Below are positions 16,069 through 46,098 of a stretch of DNA of 47,541 nucleotides, one piece after another. The notes beneath the pieces were generated by a model that was not told the origin of the DNA, did not search any database, and saw nothing but the letters and a program-made list of their open reading frames with translations. The stretch is from Acidobacteriota bacterium (GTDB taxonomy: Bacteria > Acidobacteriota > Vicinamibacteria > Vicinamibacterales > 2-12-FULL-66-21), in the NCBI GenBank assembly GCA_003222675.1, contig QHWT01000089.1, positions 1 through 47,541 on the forward strand, in the 5' to 3' direction. The number at the start of each line of letters is the position of its first letter. Positions within the stretch are counted from its first letter, which is position 1. The translations under genes and the position numbers were made by a program.

Positions 16069-16089
16069 GAATTTGCTGTAGTGGTCCGT

Positions 16090-16125
16090 CTCCAGGCGGA
16101 ACGTGCGGTCCGGCTGAAGCCGGAC
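16090..16125. repeat. CCGGCTgaAGCCGG dispersed palindrome upstream of bshC
   Basis: CAGGCGGAACGTGCGGT is followed by CCGGCTGAAGCCGG, the same palindrome type found inside the PIG-L/NEW3 coding sequence at 20437-20450. It lies in the gap between the divergent pseudokinase and bshC genes, which argues against starting bshC as early as 16081. Confidence 0.6.
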
Positions 16126-16176
16126 TCCGAAAGCGCGGGATCCGCGGGATGCGCGAAGGCGTCACAGGCGGATGAG

Positions 16177-17901
16177 ATGTCGCGCCGCCTTGACAGTTTT
16201 CTGAAGCCTCTGAGAGAGTACGGCACCGTGTCCGCGGAACCTGCCACTCCCCTTCCCGGCACTCAATCCGCCGGTCGTCTGCGTGCCAGTGCCGTCGACG
16301 TGCGCCGCTTTCCGTGGGTGCGTCCGCTCGCCGGAGAATACGCGTTCAACTACGGGCGCGTCGATGGGCTGTATGCGGGCGACCCCAACGATCCCGCAGC
16401 GTGGCGTACGGCGATCGCGCGGGTGCAGCAGCACAACCGCAACCGCGACGGGATTGCGCGCGTCATCCGGACACAACAGGAGCAACGCGGCGCTCCGCCG
16501 GCCGCGCGCGACGCTGCCGCGCGGCTCGCGGATCGGTCGACGGTGGCCGTCGTCACTGGCCAGCAAGCGGGCGCGTTCGGCGGACCGCTGTTCACGCTGC
16601 TCAAGGCGGTGACGGCGCTGCAGCTCGCGGGTCGCACCGCGCGCGATCACGATGTTCCCGCGATCGCGATCTTCTGGGTCGATGCCGAAGATCACGATTG
16701 GGACGAAGTGCAGAGCTGTACGGTGCTCGACGCGGAGTTCCAGCCCCGCACCGTCACGCTCCCGCCGCCAGAGGGCGCGGGCGATCTGTCGGTCGCGGCA
16801 CTCACTCTGGATCAGCGCGTCGAGCAGGCCATCTCGGAGCTCGAGGCCGCACTCCCTAAAACGGAATTCACCACAGGCGTCATCGATTCGCTGACCCACG
16901 CGTGGCGCCCTGGGAGTGGCATGGGGCGCGCGTTCGCCACGTGGCTCGAACACCTGCTCGGTCCTTACGGGCTGATCGTGTTCGAGTCGTCGGATCCCGC
17001 AGCCAAGCCGCTCGTCGGCGAGGTCTTTACACGCGAGCTTGCAATGGCCGGACGCACCGCGGCGCTCGCCGCGGAAGCGGGCGACGCGCTGGCGTCGTGC
17101 GGGCACGCGCCGCAGGTGGTGCCGCAACCCGACTCCTTGTCGTTGTTCCGGCTGGATCACGGCCGGCGTCCTATTCGACGGCAGGGCGCTGACTTCGTCG
17201 CAGGCGACGAGGTGTTTTCAGCGGACGCGCTCGCGCGCGAAGCGGCGGCGCATCCCGACGGATTCAGTCCGAACGTGCTCCTGCGGCCGATCGTGCAGGA
17301 CACGCTGTTCCCGACGATCTGCTACGTGCCAGGCCCGAGCGAGCTCGCGTACCTCGGACAGCTCCGCGGCGTCTACGAACAGTTTGGCGTGCCGATGCCG
17401 CTGATGTACCCGCGTGCCACCGTGACGCTGCTCGATTCCGGCGCGTCACGATTCATGTCGAAGTACGGATTGCCGCTCGAGGATCTGCAGCCGCCGGATG
17501 AATCGGCGCTGAACCGCCTGCTCACATCGCAATTGCCGGCGGAAGTCGAACAGGCGCTGCGCGACGCCGGGTCGCAGATTCAGCAGTCGATGAAGCGGAT
17601 CGTCGACGTGCTCCCCTCCCTCGATCCGACTCTGGCCGGCGCAGCGAAGACGACGCTGGGCAAGATGGAACACGAGCTGCGGGCGCTTCAGACGAAAGTG
17701 ATCCACGCGGCGAAACGCCGCGATGAGACGCTCCGTCGCCAGTTCACGCGCGCGCAGGCGCAGGCGTTCCCACACGGCCATCCGCAGGAACGCACGCTCG
17801 GCGTGGTCTACTTCCTGGACAAGTTCGGACCGGGGCTCGTCGATCTGCTCCTGACACAGCTTCCGCTCGAAATGGGCAAACACTGGGTGATCACGCTGTG
17901 A
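16177..17901 (+). CDS. bshC: Putative cysteine ligase BshC (bacillithiol synthesis family)
   Basis: 574 residues from ATG 16177; an upstream GTG at 16081 stays open but would read through a dispersed repeat. Motifs of the BshC family: DVRRFPWVRPLAGEYAFNY, AVVTGQQAGAFGGPLFTLLKA (a Rossmann-like nucleotide-binding region), FWVDAEDHDWDEVQSC, YVPGPSELAYLGQLRGVYEQFGVPMPLMYPR, a coiled-coil stretch near 490-530, and the C-terminal HPQERTLGVVYFLDKFGPGLVDLL. In Firmicutes BshC adds cysteine to glucosaminyl-malate to finish bacillithiol. No bshA or bshB is adjacent, so whether this organism makes bacillithiol or a variant thiol is unknown. It is convergent with argH. Confidence 0.88.
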   Translation: MSRRLDSFLKPLREYGTVSAEPATPLPGTQSAGRLRASAVDVRRFPWVRPLAGEYAFNYGRVDGLYAGDPNDPAAWRTAIARVQQHNRNRDGIARVIRTQQEQRGAPPAARDAAARLADRSTVAVVTGQQAGAFGGPLFTLLKAVTALQLAGRTARDHDVPAIAIFWVDAEDHDWDEVQSCTVLDAEFQPRTVTLPPPEGAGDLSVAALTLDQRVEQAISELEAALPKTEFTTGVIDSLTHAWRPGSGMGRAFATWLEHLLGPYGLIVFESSDPAAKPLVGEVFTRELAMAGRTAALAAEAGDALASCGHAPQVVPQPDSLSLFRLDHGRRPIRRQGADFVAGDEVFSADALAREAAAHPDGFSPNVLLRPIVQDTLFPTICYVPGPSELAYLGQLRGVYEQFGVPMPLMYPRATVTLLDSGASRFMSKYGLPLEDLQPPDESALNRLLTSQLPAEVEQALRDAGSQIQQSMKRIVDVLPSLDPTLAGAAKTTLGKMEHELRALQTKVIHAAKRRDETLRRQFTRAQAQAFPHGHPQERTLGVVYFLDKFGPGLVDLLLTQLPLEMGKHWVITL

Positions 17902-17907
17902 TCACCT

Positions 17908-17970
17908 GACGTAGCGCAACCCTTCAGGGCTGCGCGTGTCACGAGCAGGGCTAAAGCCCTGCGCTACGGG
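17908..17970. repeat. Hairpin pair between convergent bshC and argH
   Basis: GTAGCGCAACCCTTCAGGGCTGCGC is followed by AGGGCTAAAGCCCTGCGCTAC (17946-17966). Each contains an AGGGCT/AGCCCT or CCCT/AGGG stem, and the outer GTAGCGCA..TGCGCTAC blocks can pair with each other. It fills the 79-base convergent gap and probably serves as a two-way terminator. Confidence 0.7.
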
Positions 17971-17980
17971 AATCGGTGCA

Positions 17981-19435
17981 TCAGAGCGCCGCGCTGATCT
18001 CTTTCAGCTGCTTCTCGGCGCGCTCGAGTCGCGCGCGCACATCCTTCAGCCACTCGTCATCACCGCGAAGCAACCCCTGCGACACTCCAATTGCCCGCAA
18101 CGTCTCCGACGGCGCGGGACCGCCATACGTCTTCCGCACGTCGACGAAATGGCGCGGGCTGAGAATCTCCGCGAGCGCCGCTTCATCGTAGACGATCTCG
18201 GTGCCCGTCACGTCCTTTGAAACGTCTCGCAGTGCCAGCGACAGCGGGCGCTCCGGCGCCGTCCTTGCGCTCGCGATGAGGCGCGACGCGATCGCGTGGC
18301 CTGCCTTGAACGGCAGCCGATGCTCGCGCGCGAGCGTGTCCGCAAGCTCGGTGACGGTGATCCATCCCTGCTCGGCGCGCGCGGCGAGCCTGGCGACGTC
18401 GAACTCCGCGTGCTCCATGGCCGCCGCGACCAGCATTACGGCGCGTGCCGCATCCTTGAACATCACCGTCACGAGCGGCTGCAGATCGTCTTCCGTGTCG
18501 ACGATGTCACCGAACGGAGTGTTGTGGATGGCGAGCATGATCGCGGACGCCTGGCCGAGCGCCTTGCTGCCAATGGCGCGCGCGTGCTCGAGCGCAACCG
18601 GGTTGCGCTTCTGCGGCATGATGCTGCTGCACTGGACGAAACCGTCGGACAGGCGCAGGTAGCCGAACTCGCTCGTGCACCACAGGAGCAGGTCCTGCAC
18701 GACGCGTCCGAGGCCCGCCACCAACACCGCGGCCGCGCTGATGCTCTCGAGCAGGTAATCAACCGTGGCAATGCTGCCGTACGTGTTGCCGGTCACCTCG
18801 TCGAAGCCGAGCAGCGTCGTCGTGCGTGTTCGATCGATTGGAAAGCCGGTGCCGGTGATCGCGCACGCGCCGAGCGGATTGCGATTCGTGCTCGCGTAGG
18901 CCGCGCGCAGGCGGACGGTATCTCGCTCCAACTGCTCGATGACGGCGAGCAGATAATGCGCAATCGTCGACGGCTGCGCCGGCTGCGTGTGCGTGTGGGC
19001 CGCGAACACGTGCTCGCGATGCGTGGCCGCGAGCGCCAGCAGCACGCGCCGCAGCGAGAGCGTCCCCTCGACGATCGTCAGGATCATCTCCCGCTGGTGC
19101 ATGCGGTACATCGTCATGTCGATGTCGTTGCGGGATCGCGCCGTGTGAAGCCGCCCCGCGGCGTCCTCGCCGCAGCGCTCCACGATCAATCGATCCAGGT
19201 AGAAGAACAGGTCCTCGTAGGTGCCGTCGTACGAGGCCTTGCGCACGTCATCGAGTGAAATGGTGTCGAGCGCCGCGCGGATCCTGTGGGCCTCGTCGCG
19301 CGCCACAATCCCCTGCTCCGCCAGCATCGCCAGGTGCGCGTAATTGATCGCCATCAGCGGCGCGAGGAACCGGGCTTTTGCGTCTTCGAAATTCTCGTTG
19401 AGAACGAGACGCACGTACTCGGGAGAGAAGCGCAC
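17981..19435 (-). CDS. argH: Argininosuccinate lyase family protein (ArgH)
   Basis: 484 residues of the fumarase/aspartase superfamily. ArgH splits argininosuccinate to arginine and fumarate. Seen: TARSRNDIDM at 98-107, AAHTHTQPAQPS at 145-156, the signature SSIMPQKRNPVALEHARAIG at 270-289, and an ASL-type C-terminal region LPFKAGHAIASRLI. The usual N-terminal WGGRF segment is missing: the protein begins MRFSPEYVRLVLNENF from a GTG one base after the stop of the upstream NEW3 gene. No other arginine gene is near. A related lyase with another substrate is possible, but the TxRSRND and HTHTQPAQP motifs favour ArgH. Confidence 0.82.
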   Translation of the reverse strand: MRFSPEYVRLVLNENFEDAKARFLAPLMAINYAHLAMLAEQGIVARDEAHRIRAALDTISLDDVRKASYDGTYEDLFFYLDRLIVERCGEDAAGRLHTARSRNDIDMTMYRMHQREMILTIVEGTLSLRRVLLALAATHREHVFAAHTHTQPAQPSTIAHYLLAVIEQLERDTVRLRAAYASTNRNPLGACAITGTGFPIDRTRTTTLLGFDEVTGNTYGSIATVDYLLESISAAAVLVAGLGRVVQDLLLWCTSEFGYLRLSDGFVQCSSIMPQKRNPVALEHARAIGSKALGQASAIMLAIHNTPFGDIVDTEDDLQPLVTVMFKDAARAVMLVAAAMEHAEFDVARLAARAEQGWITVTELADTLAREHRLPFKAGHAIASRLIASARTAPERPLSLALRDVSKDVTGTEIVYDEAALAEILSPRHFVDVRKTYGGPAPSETLRAIGVSQGLLRGDDEWLKDVRARLERAEKQLKEISAAL

Positions 19436-19436
19436 G

Positions 19437-21317
19437 CTACCGCTTTCCTGAAGACAGGAGATTGGCCATCAGCCGATACGCGCCGTCGACTCCGGCCGGA
19501 AGCTGACGCCACAGTCCGAGACCGACGTAGATCCATCGTCCTTTGCCGGTCCGCGCTTCGACGAGCGCGCCGGTTTTCGGACCCGCATTGTACGGGAACG
19601 GATCCTGCGATCGCACGAGATCGACATAACGTGGATCTTTCTGTCCGAGGAAGTAGGTGCCGCGCTCCTGCACCCAGCTCTGCCAGGACTCAGCGCCGAT
19701 GCGATTCGGAGTGGTGAACACGGGATTGTCGGGCACGAGCACTTCGATCGGCGCCTTCTCGTCCGTCACCCGATCCGACGTCGTCTTCGCCGGGTACGGG
19801 CCGTATTGCGCTTCGTTGAACTCGTTGCGCTGATACTGGACGATGACGGTGCCGCCATTTTCCGCATACTGGAGCAGCCGCTGGTTGTTCGCGCGCAGAT
19901 CCGGGCGTCGCTCGTACGCGCGCACGCCGACGACGATGTCATCGAGCTGCGAGAGATCGCCGGACGCGAGCGTGTCGGGATCGATGAGGCGCACGGCCGC
20001 CCCGAGCTGCTCGATCGCTTCCGGCACGCGGTCTCCTACCCCCATGATGTAGCCGACGTGCAGGCCGGGCGTGATTTTCACGTCCATTACCTTGGCGCGC
20101 GTCTCCGCCTTCTCCAGGACATGACGTCGATGGATGTGCGGGTATTCGACCACCTCGTACCCGAGATCGGATTGCGTTCCGCCCGCCGTAGCGACCCCCT
20201 TCAGGACGAACTCAGCGGGATGCGCGCCGGCGGGCGGACGCACCTTGAACGTGACGGTGGTCTCTTCATCTTCTCGACCGAAGTGGAGGGGCGCCGATGC
20301 CGGTTCGATCTGCCAGCCCGCAGGCGCGGACAGCGTGACCGTCGCGTCTGACGTTCCTTTCTGGTTGTTGCCGACGGTGACGCGGATGTCCTTCCACCTG
20401 AAGGCGGAAGCCACGTGAGTGGGATGCTCGTGGCTTCCGGCTTCAGCCGGAAGCTCCGCTTCAGGCGGAAGATCCGCCGCAGGAAAGACCGCGATGTCGG
20501 GATCCACGCGCACGTTGAACGGCGGCACGACTTGCAGCTCCGATCGCTTCTCTCCCGCGATCACGTTGGAGTAGCGGAACTGCACGGAGCGCTCGACGTC
20601 GACGCGCTCCCCGCGGATCGTCAGGTGAAACGTCGCAACGAACGGCGATGGACGGAACGGCAGGCCGAACGGCACATCCGGATCGAAGTCATAGCGTGCC
20701 GCATCGCTCCTCGGTGTCCAGTACGGCGTCGACAGACGGGTGTGCGGCGGAATCATCAAATTCGCCTTGCACGTCACGTTCTTGCCCGCGACCAGCGCAC
20801 CGGCGCAGGCGGTGGGAGGCGCACCGGCGAATCCCGCGAGCGTGACGGACTCGAGCCGAGACTCCTCCGTTGAGTTCACGGCCGCATAGACCGATACGTT
20901 CAGCTGCTGTCCCGGAACGACGATGCCGTCGTCGCCCAGCGCATCAAGGCGGATGGCCGATGCGATGACGAGCGCGTCCTGGAACTGCCGTTCTTTGTGC
21001 GCGAGGCGCAGATCGATTTCGTACCGGGCGTCGGCGCTCAGAACGCTGGGAAGATTCGCGCGCAGCGCTCGGACGGCGTGCAGTCCCGCGGCGAGCGGAG
21101 TCACCGCAGCAGACGGACGACTCATTGCCAGAGCCTTCCGAGCAGCGCTCACCGCGTCGGCAATCGTCTGCAGCGGCGTCAGAACTTCCGGCGGCCTCGA
21201 TCCGGTAAAGCGAACAAGGCCAAGGAGCGAGGTGTCGATGCCATCAAAGAACTGTGCTGGCGCCACGTGACCCGTCTCGAGCTTCGAGTCCAGCAGCTTG
21301 TAGGTTCTGTTCTGCAC
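19437..21317 (-). CDS. Downstream part of PIG-L/NEW3 secreted protein, cut off by an in-frame TAA
   Basis: 626 residues if started at GTG 21317. This frame is continuous with the PIG-L gene above: only the TAA at 21330-21332 separates them, and the four codons in between (Leu-Pro-Gly-Gln) read smoothly. It holds Ig/NEW3-like beta domains (for example VTVGNNQKGTSDATVTLSAPAGWQIEP) and a C-terminal amidotransferase-like or ThuA-like domain (GYIMGVGDRVPEAIEQL, DDIVVGVRAYERRPDLRANNQRLLQYAENGG). It has no signal peptide, so alone it would stay cytoplasmic, which is odd for such domains. A palindromic repeat encodes residues PPEAELPAEAGSHEHPTHVA within it. The gene ends one base before argH. Confidence 0.75.
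   Translation of the reverse strand: MQNRTYKLLDSKLETGHVAPAQFFDGIDTSLLGLVRFTGSRPPEVLTPLQTIADAVSAARKALAMSRPSAAVTPLAAGLHAVRALRANLPSVLSADARYEIDLRLAHKERQFQDALVIASAIRLDALGDDGIVVPGQQLNVSVYAAVNSTEESRLESVTLAGFAGAPPTACAGALVAGKNVTCKANLMIPPHTRLSTPYWTPRSDAARYDFDPDVPFGLPFRPSPFVATFHLTIRGERVDVERSVQFRYSNVIAGEKRSELQVVPPFNVRVDPDIAVFPAADLPPEAELPAEAGSHEHPTHVASAFRWKDIRVTVGNNQKGTSDATVTLSAPAGWQIEPASAPLHFGREDEETTVTFKVRPPAGAHPAEFVLKGVATAGGTQSDLGYEVVEYPHIHRRHVLEKAETRAKVMDVKITPGLHVGYIMGVGDRVPEAIEQLGAAVRLIDPDTLASGDLSQLDDIVVGVRAYERRPDLRANNQRLLQYAENGGTVIVQYQRNEFNEAQYGPYPAKTTSDRVTDEKAPIEVLVPDNPVFTTPNRIGAESWQSWVQERGTYFLGQKDPRYVDLVRSQDPFPYNAGPKTGALVEARTGKGRWIYVGLGLWRQLPAGVDGAYRLMANLLSSGKR
20395..20475. repeat. Dispersed palindromic element inserted within a coding frame
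   Basis: Three stems in a row: GGAAGCCACG (20406-20415) with CGTGGCTTCC (20429-20438), CCGGCTtcAGCCGG (20437-20450), and TCCGCttcaGGCGGA (about 20454-20468). Translated leftward it gives PPEAELPAEAGSHEHPTHVASAFR, a low-complexity insert between beta domains. GGCGGAAG and CCGGCT..AGCCGG parts recur in spacers elsewhere in the window. Confidence 0.75.
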
Positions 21318-21329
21318 TTGACCGGGCAG

Positions 21330-22142
21330 TTACAGCAATTGCGACGTGCCCTGGCACTTGTGCATCGAGCGTGCTTCGAGCCCGAGCTCCGCATACGTGC
21401 GGCCGAGTAGCGGATCGAAACCCGACACGTCGACCCTGAGCAAATCCGCAGTCGAAGGAGGCGGATTCGGCATGAAAGCCGATACGTCAGTGCAGAACAC
21501 GCGCATCGCCTGCCAGGGATGCAACCCGGCTTGAATCTGCTCCGGGTATTTGTTTGGATCGGCGGCCGCGGTAAACGCTTCCAGCGTCAGGCGCGCGGAC
21601 GCCTGGTGGTGCTGGCCGCCTCCCTCGCCGCCACAGAGGAATCCCACGATCACGTCCGGCCTGATTGCCCGGATGTGCCGAACGTAGTCGCCGACGATCT
21701 CGTCGTGCCCCCACTTCTGAATCGACTCTTCGACGCTGAACGAGTAGCCGAAATCGACCGCGCGGGTGAAGTACTGCTCGGCGCCGTCGAACCGATGGAC
21801 GGCGAGGAGTTCCTCCGTGCGCAACACGCCGAGCGCCTGGGACAGCTCCGGGCCGATCTCGTTCTGTCCGCCGTCGCCGCGCGTCGCCGTCACGAGCGTC
21901 GTGCGCACGCCCTGCCCTTCACCGACCATCGCGAGCAGCGCGTTGTCCTCGTCGTCGGGGTGCGCGTCCGTCTGCATGAACGTACCGCTCGATGACAGCT
22001 TGCGCAGGATTAACTCGAGCGCTGCCGCGTCGGGATGTTCGGCGACGGGAGCGACGCGGAGCTGAGCTGAAGGCGCCGACGTGACGGTGAGAAGAGCTGC
22101 GCAGAAAACAATGACGCAGCTGGGTGTCGTGCGTATGAACAT
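21330..22142 (-). CDS. Secreted PIG-L family deacetylase domain, terminated by a premature TAA
   Basis: 270 residues from ATG 22142 (MFIRTTPSCVIVFCAALLTVTSAPSAQ, an export signal). The PIG-L/LmbE zinc site is visible as TDAHPDDEDN and later GGEGGGQHHQAS, with TRGDGGQNEIG between. The family removes N-acetyl groups from glucosamine-like sugars. The frame stops at TAA (21330-21332) right after MHKCQGTSQLL, then continues in the same frame into the NEW3/amidotransferase part. Large secreted PIG-L proteins of about 850-900 residues with this domain order fit a single 901-codon reading frame. A recent nonsense mutation, a sequencing error or stop readthrough would each explain it. Longer upstream starts lie in G-rich repeats. 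Confidence 0.75.
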   Translation of the reverse strand: MFIRTTPSCVIVFCAALLTVTSAPSAQLRVAPVAEHPDAAALELILRKLSSSGTFMQTDAHPDDEDNALLAMVGEGQGVRTTLVTATRGDGGQNEIGPELSQALGVLRTEELLAVHRFDGAEQYFTRAVDFGYSFSVEESIQKWGHDEIVGDYVRHIRAIRPDVIVGFLCGGEGGGQHHQASARLTLEAFTAAADPNKYPEQIQAGLHPWQAMRVFCTDVSAFMPNPPPSTADLLRVDVSGFDPLLGRTYAELGLEARSMHKCQGTSQLL

Positions 22143-22146
22143 ATCG

Positions 22147-22298
22147 GGGTGCGGGATCCGGGATCCGGGGTGCGGGGTCCGGGGTGCGGGGTGCGGGTAC
22201 GGAGGTTCGGTGCAGGAAACGGCCGCGGTTACCAAATCCGCCGCTCGCCCCCGCACCCCGCGCCTCGCGCCCCGCGCCCCGCGCCCCGCGCCCCGAGC
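22147..22298. repeat. GGGGTGCGGG-type simple repeats flanking a short spacer
   Basis: Immediately upstream of the PIG-L start, GGGTGCGGGATCC and GGGGTGCGGG phrases repeat five or more times (22147-22195). A C-rich counterpart of CCCCGCGCC repeats follows at about 22250-22296. The two blocks are roughly complementary and could pair across the spacer or form G-quadruplexes. No gene lies between them. Confidence 0.7.
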
Positions 22299-25158: not shown

Positions 25159-25173
25159 GAAATGCACCTCCCT

Positions 25174-25403
25174 AACGTGGGGCTCCGCCCCACACCCCGG
25201 GTCGGTCGCTCGCGGGGACCCCTACGCCCCGCGCCGCTCCCTCGCAAACTAACGTGGGGCTCCGCCCCACACTCCGGCTCGGTCGCTCGCGGGGACTCCT
25301 ACGCCCCGCGCCGCTCCCTCGCAAACTAACGTGGGGCTCCGCCCCACACTCCGGCTCGGTCGCTCGCGGGGACTCCTACGCCCCGCGCCGCTCCCCCGCA
25401 AAA
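25174..25403. repeat. Three tandem copies of a 77-base repeat
   Basis: Units start at 25174, 25251 and 25328 with exactly 77-base spacing; the third is slightly shortened and diverges after CCCCCGCAAAA. Each holds the hairpin GTGGGGCtccGCCCCAC, then CGGTCGCTCGCGGGGA, then CTACGCCCCGCGCCGCTCC. Copies 2 and 3 are nearly identical; copy 1 differs at a few bases. The array separates two divergent genes and touches the receptor ribosome binding site. A single inverted relative lies at 7572-7639. Confidence 0.92.
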
Positions 25404-27784: not shown

Positions 27785-27789
27785 TTCTT

Positions 27790-27860
27790 CCGCCTGACCA
27801 GCCTCCGCCAAGGCTACGGCGGTCCGGCGAAGCGCTTCGCGCGAAGGCGGAAGGCGGAAG
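27790..27860. repeat. 71-base dispersed repeat, copy 1
   Basis: CCGCCTGACCAGCCTCCGCC through AAGGCGGAAG, identical to 31242-31312 except one base (CCGGCG here, CCGCCG there), in the same orientation. The ends are inverted (CCGCCT..AGGCGG) and the middle contains GAAGCGCTTC. It lies directly after the PBP stop and ends about 12 bases before a -10-like TACAAT (27873-27878) for the next gene. Confidence 0.9.
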
Positions 27861-31199: not shown

Positions 31200-31241
31200 A
31201 GGCGCGGACCCAGCCGGTGTCGGACCCCGATGGTCGAACGT

Positions 31242-31312
31242 CCGCCTGACCAGCCTCCGCCAAGGCTACGGCGGTCCGCCGAAGCGCTTCGCGCGAAGGC
31301 GGAAGGCGGAAG
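31242..31312. repeat. 71-base dispersed repeat, copy 2
   Basis: Direct copy of 27790-27860 with a single difference. It lies between the amidohydrolase and the hrcA promoter. Together the copies bracket a 3.4 kb block with three genes. Confidence 0.9.
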
Positions 31313-45352: not shown

Positions 45353-45480
45353 GATCCGTGTGATCCGTGTGATCCGTGGCTTGACCTGGCCGTGTGATCC
45401 GTGGCTCGACCTGGCCGTGTGATCCGTGGCTCGACCTGGCCGTGTGATCCGTGGCTCGACCTGGCCGTGTGATCCGTGGC
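45353..45480. repeat. Tandem repeat array in the lptE-holA gap
   Basis: Two 9-base units GATCCGTGT (45353-45370), then four 25-base units beginning GATCCGTGGCTCGACC (45371, 45396, 45421, 45446; the first has TTGACC), then a partial unit ending at the lptE stop codon. The array fills the whole gap and replaces any clear holA ribosome binding site. Confidence 0.93.
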
Positions 45481-46098
45481 TCAGAACGCTTCGAGGATGG
45501 CGCTGACGACCGCGCGTGCGAATTCCGAGGCCATGCGGTCCAGCGCGTTGACGTCCTGACCGAAGAACGCGGTCGGGTCGAGCGTGCCGGCGCCCGACGA
45601 GACGTCGAACTCCTCGCGATACTGCATCCCCGGGTTCGCCCACAGCACCTTGTTCGTCTTCAGATCTTTGAACTCCACAGCCGCGGTCAGCGTGAGGACG
45701 TAGCGCGTCGCCTGCTGCTGCTCGTTGAACGCGGCAGGGGCAATCGTGATTGAGGAGATCGCGCCGGTGAGCACTGCGTCCACGCCGGTCGCCTCGGTCT
45801 CGATGGTGTACTTGCCGCGGCCGATGAACTCGCTCCGAACGCGCTCGGTGACGCGGCGTTCCACATCGAACACCGCCGTCTGGTTCGTGAACTGCGGTAT
45901 ACCGATCCGATGAATATATGCCGGCAGGAACGACCCGCGCCCCGCGAGCGAATAGCCACATCCGCCCTGCCCAAGCAGGGCGGCTGCGGCTATGAGGAAA
46001 TAGGTCCGATTCTTCGCGAGCCTCAAGGTCGCGTTGAGCCACGCCGAAGGCCGACTCTCGGGTCTGGCGTGATCGCATTGCCCGGTTGTCGACATCAT
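45481..46098 (-). CDS. lptE: LPS assembly lipoprotein LptE
   Basis: 205 residues. LptE plugs the LptD barrel and delivers lipopolysaccharide to the outer surface. A long N-terminus ends in a lipoprotein signal ([14 protein letters not shown], Cys47), followed by [45 protein letters not shown], characteristic of LptE/RlpB, and a C-terminal helix [24 protein letters not shown] at 46098 overlaps the leuS stop by four bases. The stretch coding for the lipobox is a perfect palindrome (CCGCCCTGC..GCAGGGCGG). Its presence shows the organism has an LPS-type outer membrane. Confidence 0.88.

Follow-up and report, generated by a model that had tools for sequence, protein, structure and literature searches.

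Many of the internal-stop pseudogenes present in public assemblies are reported in PMC11017572 to be assembly errors. In-frame stops in constrained genes are described in PMC7918605 as widespread and often short-lived, the informative ones being those shared between species. Here we analyze a TAA codon lying within a gene for a secreted protein of the PIG-L type. The window (the whole stretch of DNA analyzed, 47,541 nucleotides) corresponds to contig C115 in a 152-contig genome of 7.16 Mb, the assembly of which is 99.9% complete. This TAA is very probably a private premature stop in an otherwise single secreted multi-domain gene, produced either by a very recent nonsense mutation or by an error in the consensus or the assembly.

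Results

The interrupted gene lies on the minus strand, a point on which the preliminary description was silent, and the plus-strand TTA at 21330-21332 is thus read as TAA (Table 1). The upstream frame ends in QGTSQLL-stop and counts 308 codons when measured from a GTG at 22256, but translation more likely begins at the ATG at 22142, since a stretch that by eye resembles a signal peptide starts there. After the TAA the same frame restarts with LPGQVQNR and continues without stops until a TAG at 19437, giving residues 310-939 of the read-through protein (P0001). Both the strand letters and the translation of the frame therefore agree with the preliminary description, which had proposed that a TAA splits a secreted PIG-L/NEW3 protein and that the frame resumes unshifted for more than 620 residues; the actual figure is 630 codons. 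The stop is located in the middle of the contig, with 21 kb to the nearer end, and the adjacent genes are intact frames.

Table 1. Position of the in-frame TAA and of the features surrounding it in the window
Feature	Position	Strand	Basis
Upstream open frame with signal-peptide-like start and PIG-L	21330..22142	(-)	start and signal peptide by eye
PIG-L match, P0001 residues 98-227	21576..21965	(-)	Pfam profile, 48.9 bits
TAA in frame, codon 309 of P0001	21330..21332	(-)	sequence and translation
GTG, earliest in-frame restart codon after the TAA	21315..21317	(-)	ribosome-binding site judged by eye
Continuation of the frame, 630 codons and TAG, with NEW3 and a C-terminal region with sub-threshold Glyco_hydro_42M	19437..21329	(-)	translation, profiles
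REP-like palindromic repeat, in frame, P0001 residues about 594-622	20391..20477	(-)	genome repeat search, alignment
NEW3 domain, P0001 residues 632-690	about 20187..20363	(-)	Pfam
Argininosuccinate-lyase-like gene, immediately downstream	17981..19435	(-)	profile match

The upstream part belongs to the PIG-L family (PF02585), scoring 48.9 to 53.3 bits where the cut-off is 28.2, and carries an AHPDDE-type motif. Since the match finishes at residue 227, 82 codons ahead of the TAA, the truncated product would keep the whole Pfam domain. Scores for the mycothiol equivalogs Mca and MshB (35.8 and 27.9 bits) were far under the respective cut-offs of 277.15 and 224.35. In the continuation, NEW3 is supported by Pfam as had been proposed, but the amidotransferase-like label given to the same protein was not sustained, its sole basis being a Glyco_hydro_42M match below cut-off at the C-terminal end (E 0.13 in the window; E 0.0012 and 18.8 bits in the relative L011, the cut-off being 25.8). 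The intact protein would thus be ordered as signal peptide, PIG-L deacetylase-type domain, long middle region, NEW3 and C-terminal region.

We searched for this protein in 60 related genomes, with a match in 55, and then across the order in 162 genomes, with a match in 132; the order-wide counts given here rest on the 150 best rows listed. Among these, 133 rows, taken from 115 other genomes, extend across the TAA site and none of them has a stop there, while 104 rows, from 91 other genomes, are full-length in a single piece (from residue 100 or earlier to residue 930 or later). As the latter align across both halves in one piece, the two halves make up one protein and are not a chance juxtaposition, and the two sets of rows together show that this is naturally one gene and has no conserved recoding. 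In a codon alignment, the position of the stop was occupied by sense codons in all 29 other distinct orthologues (L039, identical in sequence to L012, was left out of this tally and of that of conserved columns below). The preliminary description had proposed to align orthologues for a full-length protein and for the residue at this codon; a full-length protein and a sense codon were found. The residue at this position varies across the order and is hydrophobic in the five highest-scoring relatives. The codon alignment was ungapped near the site against the nearest relatives, and a frameshift or compensated indel was accordingly rejected.

Eleven of the 150 best rows listed contain a stop, namely the window's own and ten others, which are among the 133 spanning rows and all of which we read. 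In nine of the ten the stop precedes the signal peptide (eight have an ATG after the stop and one, in G098, has a possible GTG only), and the tenth (L103, G146:C35:22240-25476) has an internal TAG at residue 664, that is, elsewhere than residue 309. Consequently, these rows were rejected as parallels to the TAA. A separate irregularity was noticed in the orthologue L043 (G006:C299:10081-14499), whose frame changes between residues 592 and 693, away from the TAA site. The genus search comprised two genomes, the source genome and its sole congener, G001. In the congener the gene is broken across two contig ends, the piece bearing the site is open, and the codon at the site would need two substitutions to become TAA. 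The viral contigs searched contained no exact copy of a 27-base piece, and two named public records that resemble the query closely were Acidobacteria metagenome-assembled genomes.

These data also bear on the idea that the halves are naturally two genes, the second being started from the GTG that lies four codons past the TAA. Such an in-frame GTG does exist, but the protein of the relatives is continuous (at least 104 full-length rows in 91 other genomes), and by eye we saw no purine-rich ribosome-binding site ahead of the GTG and no signal peptide in the product restarted from it, which would therefore stay in the cytoplasm. The preliminary description had likewise reported both elements to be missing from the downstream part, and had set its reading against orthologues encoded as two genes; this arrangement was looked for and not found, relatives encoding one continuous protein, and we regard it as highly improbable.

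We then examined whether the part beyond the TAA has decayed. At the 161 downstream columns conserved in at least 93% of sequences, the window departs from the consensus in five, the number in the 29 other orthologues ranging from 1 to 17. Private amino acid changes counted with three outgroups were 24, 33 and 32 in the window versus 38, 40 and 44 in the congener; the window is therefore not faster (one-sided p 0.83 to 0.97), and the upper 95% limits of the window/congener ratio were 1.08, 1.34 and 1.17. Pairwise dN/dS to the congener was 0.22 downstream and 0.11 upstream, the latter over only 97 codons, and the comparison with L011 went in the same direction (0.31 versus 0.20); dS to the congener was 0.8 to 1.3, so that synonymous sites are near saturation. 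In summary, the 630 downstream codons displayed no further stop or frameshift and no evolution faster than in the congener, and an old pseudogene is unsupported. If branches are taken as equal and the amino acid rate is assumed to rise about 4.5-fold (the inverse of the dN/dS of 0.22) once constraint is lost, the stop would, as a rough estimate, have been present for no more than about one tenth of the branch. The absence of decay fits a young mutation or an error, and is equally to be expected under real readthrough.

Programmed or tolerated readthrough, which would yield a short and a long secreted form, is indeed compatible with a downstream frame that is open and constrained. However, none of the 133 spanning rows among the 150 best listed has a stop at the site. 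Moreover, 48 of the 49 tRNA matches in the genome were typed and none of these has a stop-reading anticodon; the remaining one (L097, 30.9 bits) received no ARAGORN call and has a Cys-like loop by eye. The 121 nt around the TAA gave no sign of a stimulating RNA structure, since 194 of 200 shuffled sequences folded at least as well (z-score +1.74), and TAA is known as the tightest of the bacterial stops. Even though PMC7918605 makes the case that stops lying in frame, with constraint maintained, are widespread among prokaryotes, we consider readthrough very unlikely here. Conserved recoding was rejected on the same grounds of the spanning rows and the lack of a fold, and a leaky TAA specific to this species, by which most of the secreted product would be a short PIG-L deacetylase and a small share would be full-length, with the NEW3 and C-terminal domains, seems extremely unlikely.

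To place the TAA in context, we scored internal stops in domain matches of four families in the source genome. They were present in 2 of 342 matches (PIG-L, 0/10; MacB_PCD, 1/150; Pkinase, 0/33; CarboxypepD_reg, 1/149), both being TGA and none TAA; 150 of 301 candidates were scored for MacB_PCD and 150 of 198 for CarboxypepD_reg. On such a low frequency, the assembly is not visibly error-ridden. The 342 matches represent about 50,000 codons (a rough sum of match lengths) and the long frames of the window 14,341, some of these frames being possibly spurious. A window this large would be expected to contain about one such stop or considerably less, and finding one is ordinary.

The surroundings of the gene were also inspected. 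The argininosuccinate-lyase-like gene (TIGR00838, 316 bits; cut-off, 279.5) adjoins the PIG-L gene in six other genomes (G001, G003, G005, G006, G008 and G013). Beyond it, on the opposite strand, there is a BshC gene (TIGR03998, 418.8 bits), so that these two genes face each other beside the PIG-L gene (16081-19435), upstream of which lies an outer-membrane receptor-like gene. PIG-L relatives include deacetylases of thiol pathways, so that a link is conceivable.

The gene carries in frame a REP-like palindrome, GTGGCTTCCGGCTTNAGCCGGAAG, which adds about 28 residues. This sequence was found at 142 places in the genome with at most three mismatches, versus one for a control with the reversed pattern. 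A similar stretch occupies the same position in the congener, and by eye the other 28 aligned orthologues lack that sequence, a few having other insertions. The pattern suggests that a palindromic repeat inserted in frame into the coding sequence. In-frame coding insertions of repeats are known from the Rickettsia palindromic elements. Other repeats in the window were a 77-base unit repeated three times in tandem, with 95-96% similarity, in the space separating two divergent genes (25172-25402), two 72-base copies, 99% alike and separated by 3.4 kb (27789-27860 and 31241-31312), and a 25-base tandem repeat (45365-45489).

Discussion

A TAA that is private to one genome and followed by an undecayed frame can be explained in few ways. 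The preliminary description had offered three, two of which stand, namely a fresh nonsense mutation and an error of assembly. Programmed readthrough, the third, is not supported, the stop being private, no stop-reading anticodon having been detected among the 48 typed tRNAs and the RNA folding poorly. We favor a real recent nonsense mutation, polymorphic or fixed in the strain, as on balance the probable origin. The location of the TAA in mid-contig between intact genes and the rarity of internal stops in an assembly that is not visibly error-ridden are in keeping with it, and the two substitutions that separate the codon from that of the congener suit a somewhat aged stop better than a single miscall. 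On the other hand, the lack of relaxed selection downstream implies that such a mutation must be young, and for a very fresh and single event the same two-substitution distance is mildly awkward, though synonymous sites are near saturation.

An assembly, polishing or strain-mixing error, with the gene unbroken in living cells, is a reasonable alternative that falls short of being probable. It would account for the unbroken gene of the relatives and for the intact evolution of the downstream part, and agrees with the frequency of such errors noted at the outset for internal-stop pseudogenes. The completeness of the assembly and the scarcity of internal stops weigh a little against it. In addition, a single miscall needs a codon one step from TAA, and a leucine codon of this kind accounts for only 7 of the 1240 leucine codons in the long frames of the window; the congener codon, two substitutions off, is also mildly awkward for a single miscall.

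If the stop is real, as under the nonsense mutation that we favor, translation would halt after PIG-L to give a secreted deacetylase-type protein of roughly 270 residues without the NEW3 and C-terminal parts, and the remainder would be translated little or not at all; we infer that termination would be efficient and the event recent. This short form may fold and work as a secreted deacetylase, because its PIG-L domain is complete, its length after the motif is like that of standalone proteins and a solved structure covers much of it. Indeed, 210 residues separate the HPDD motif from the TAA, and in the six standalone PIG-L frames compared from this genome the stretch from HPD to the end measures 209 to 264 (209 in one, 231 to 264 in the other five). 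The only solved-structure match was LnmX (5bmo), which aligned with residues 56-216 of the short form (270 residues in all; E 8.9e-5).

A single private stop is of little importance beyond a caveat for annotation. Automatic annotation would cut one conserved protein in two or label it as pseudogenic, with the loss of the signal peptide from the downstream half. The stop would gain in importance only if a full-length product were demonstrated, since readthrough of TAA is not to be expected of a high-GC bacterium that has no suppressor tRNA.

With respect to the described systems, the locus resembles the single-stop pseudogenes and nonsense alleles treated in PMC11017572 in having one internal stop, in one genome, within a frame that is otherwise open and conserved, but differs in that an entire catalytic-type domain is retained ahead of the stop, which makes partial function plausible. 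It shares with the constrained in-frame stops of PMC7918605 a stop inside the frame and a downstream part under constraint; however, that work reportedly focuses on stops at the same place in two or more species, whereas the present TAA is unshared. At the protein level, the upstream part is like the PIG-L/LmbE family deacetylases in its above-cut-off score and its motif, and differs in scoring far under the cut-offs of the Mca and MshB models (NCBIfam) and in that the protein is secreted and fused to long C-terminal domains.
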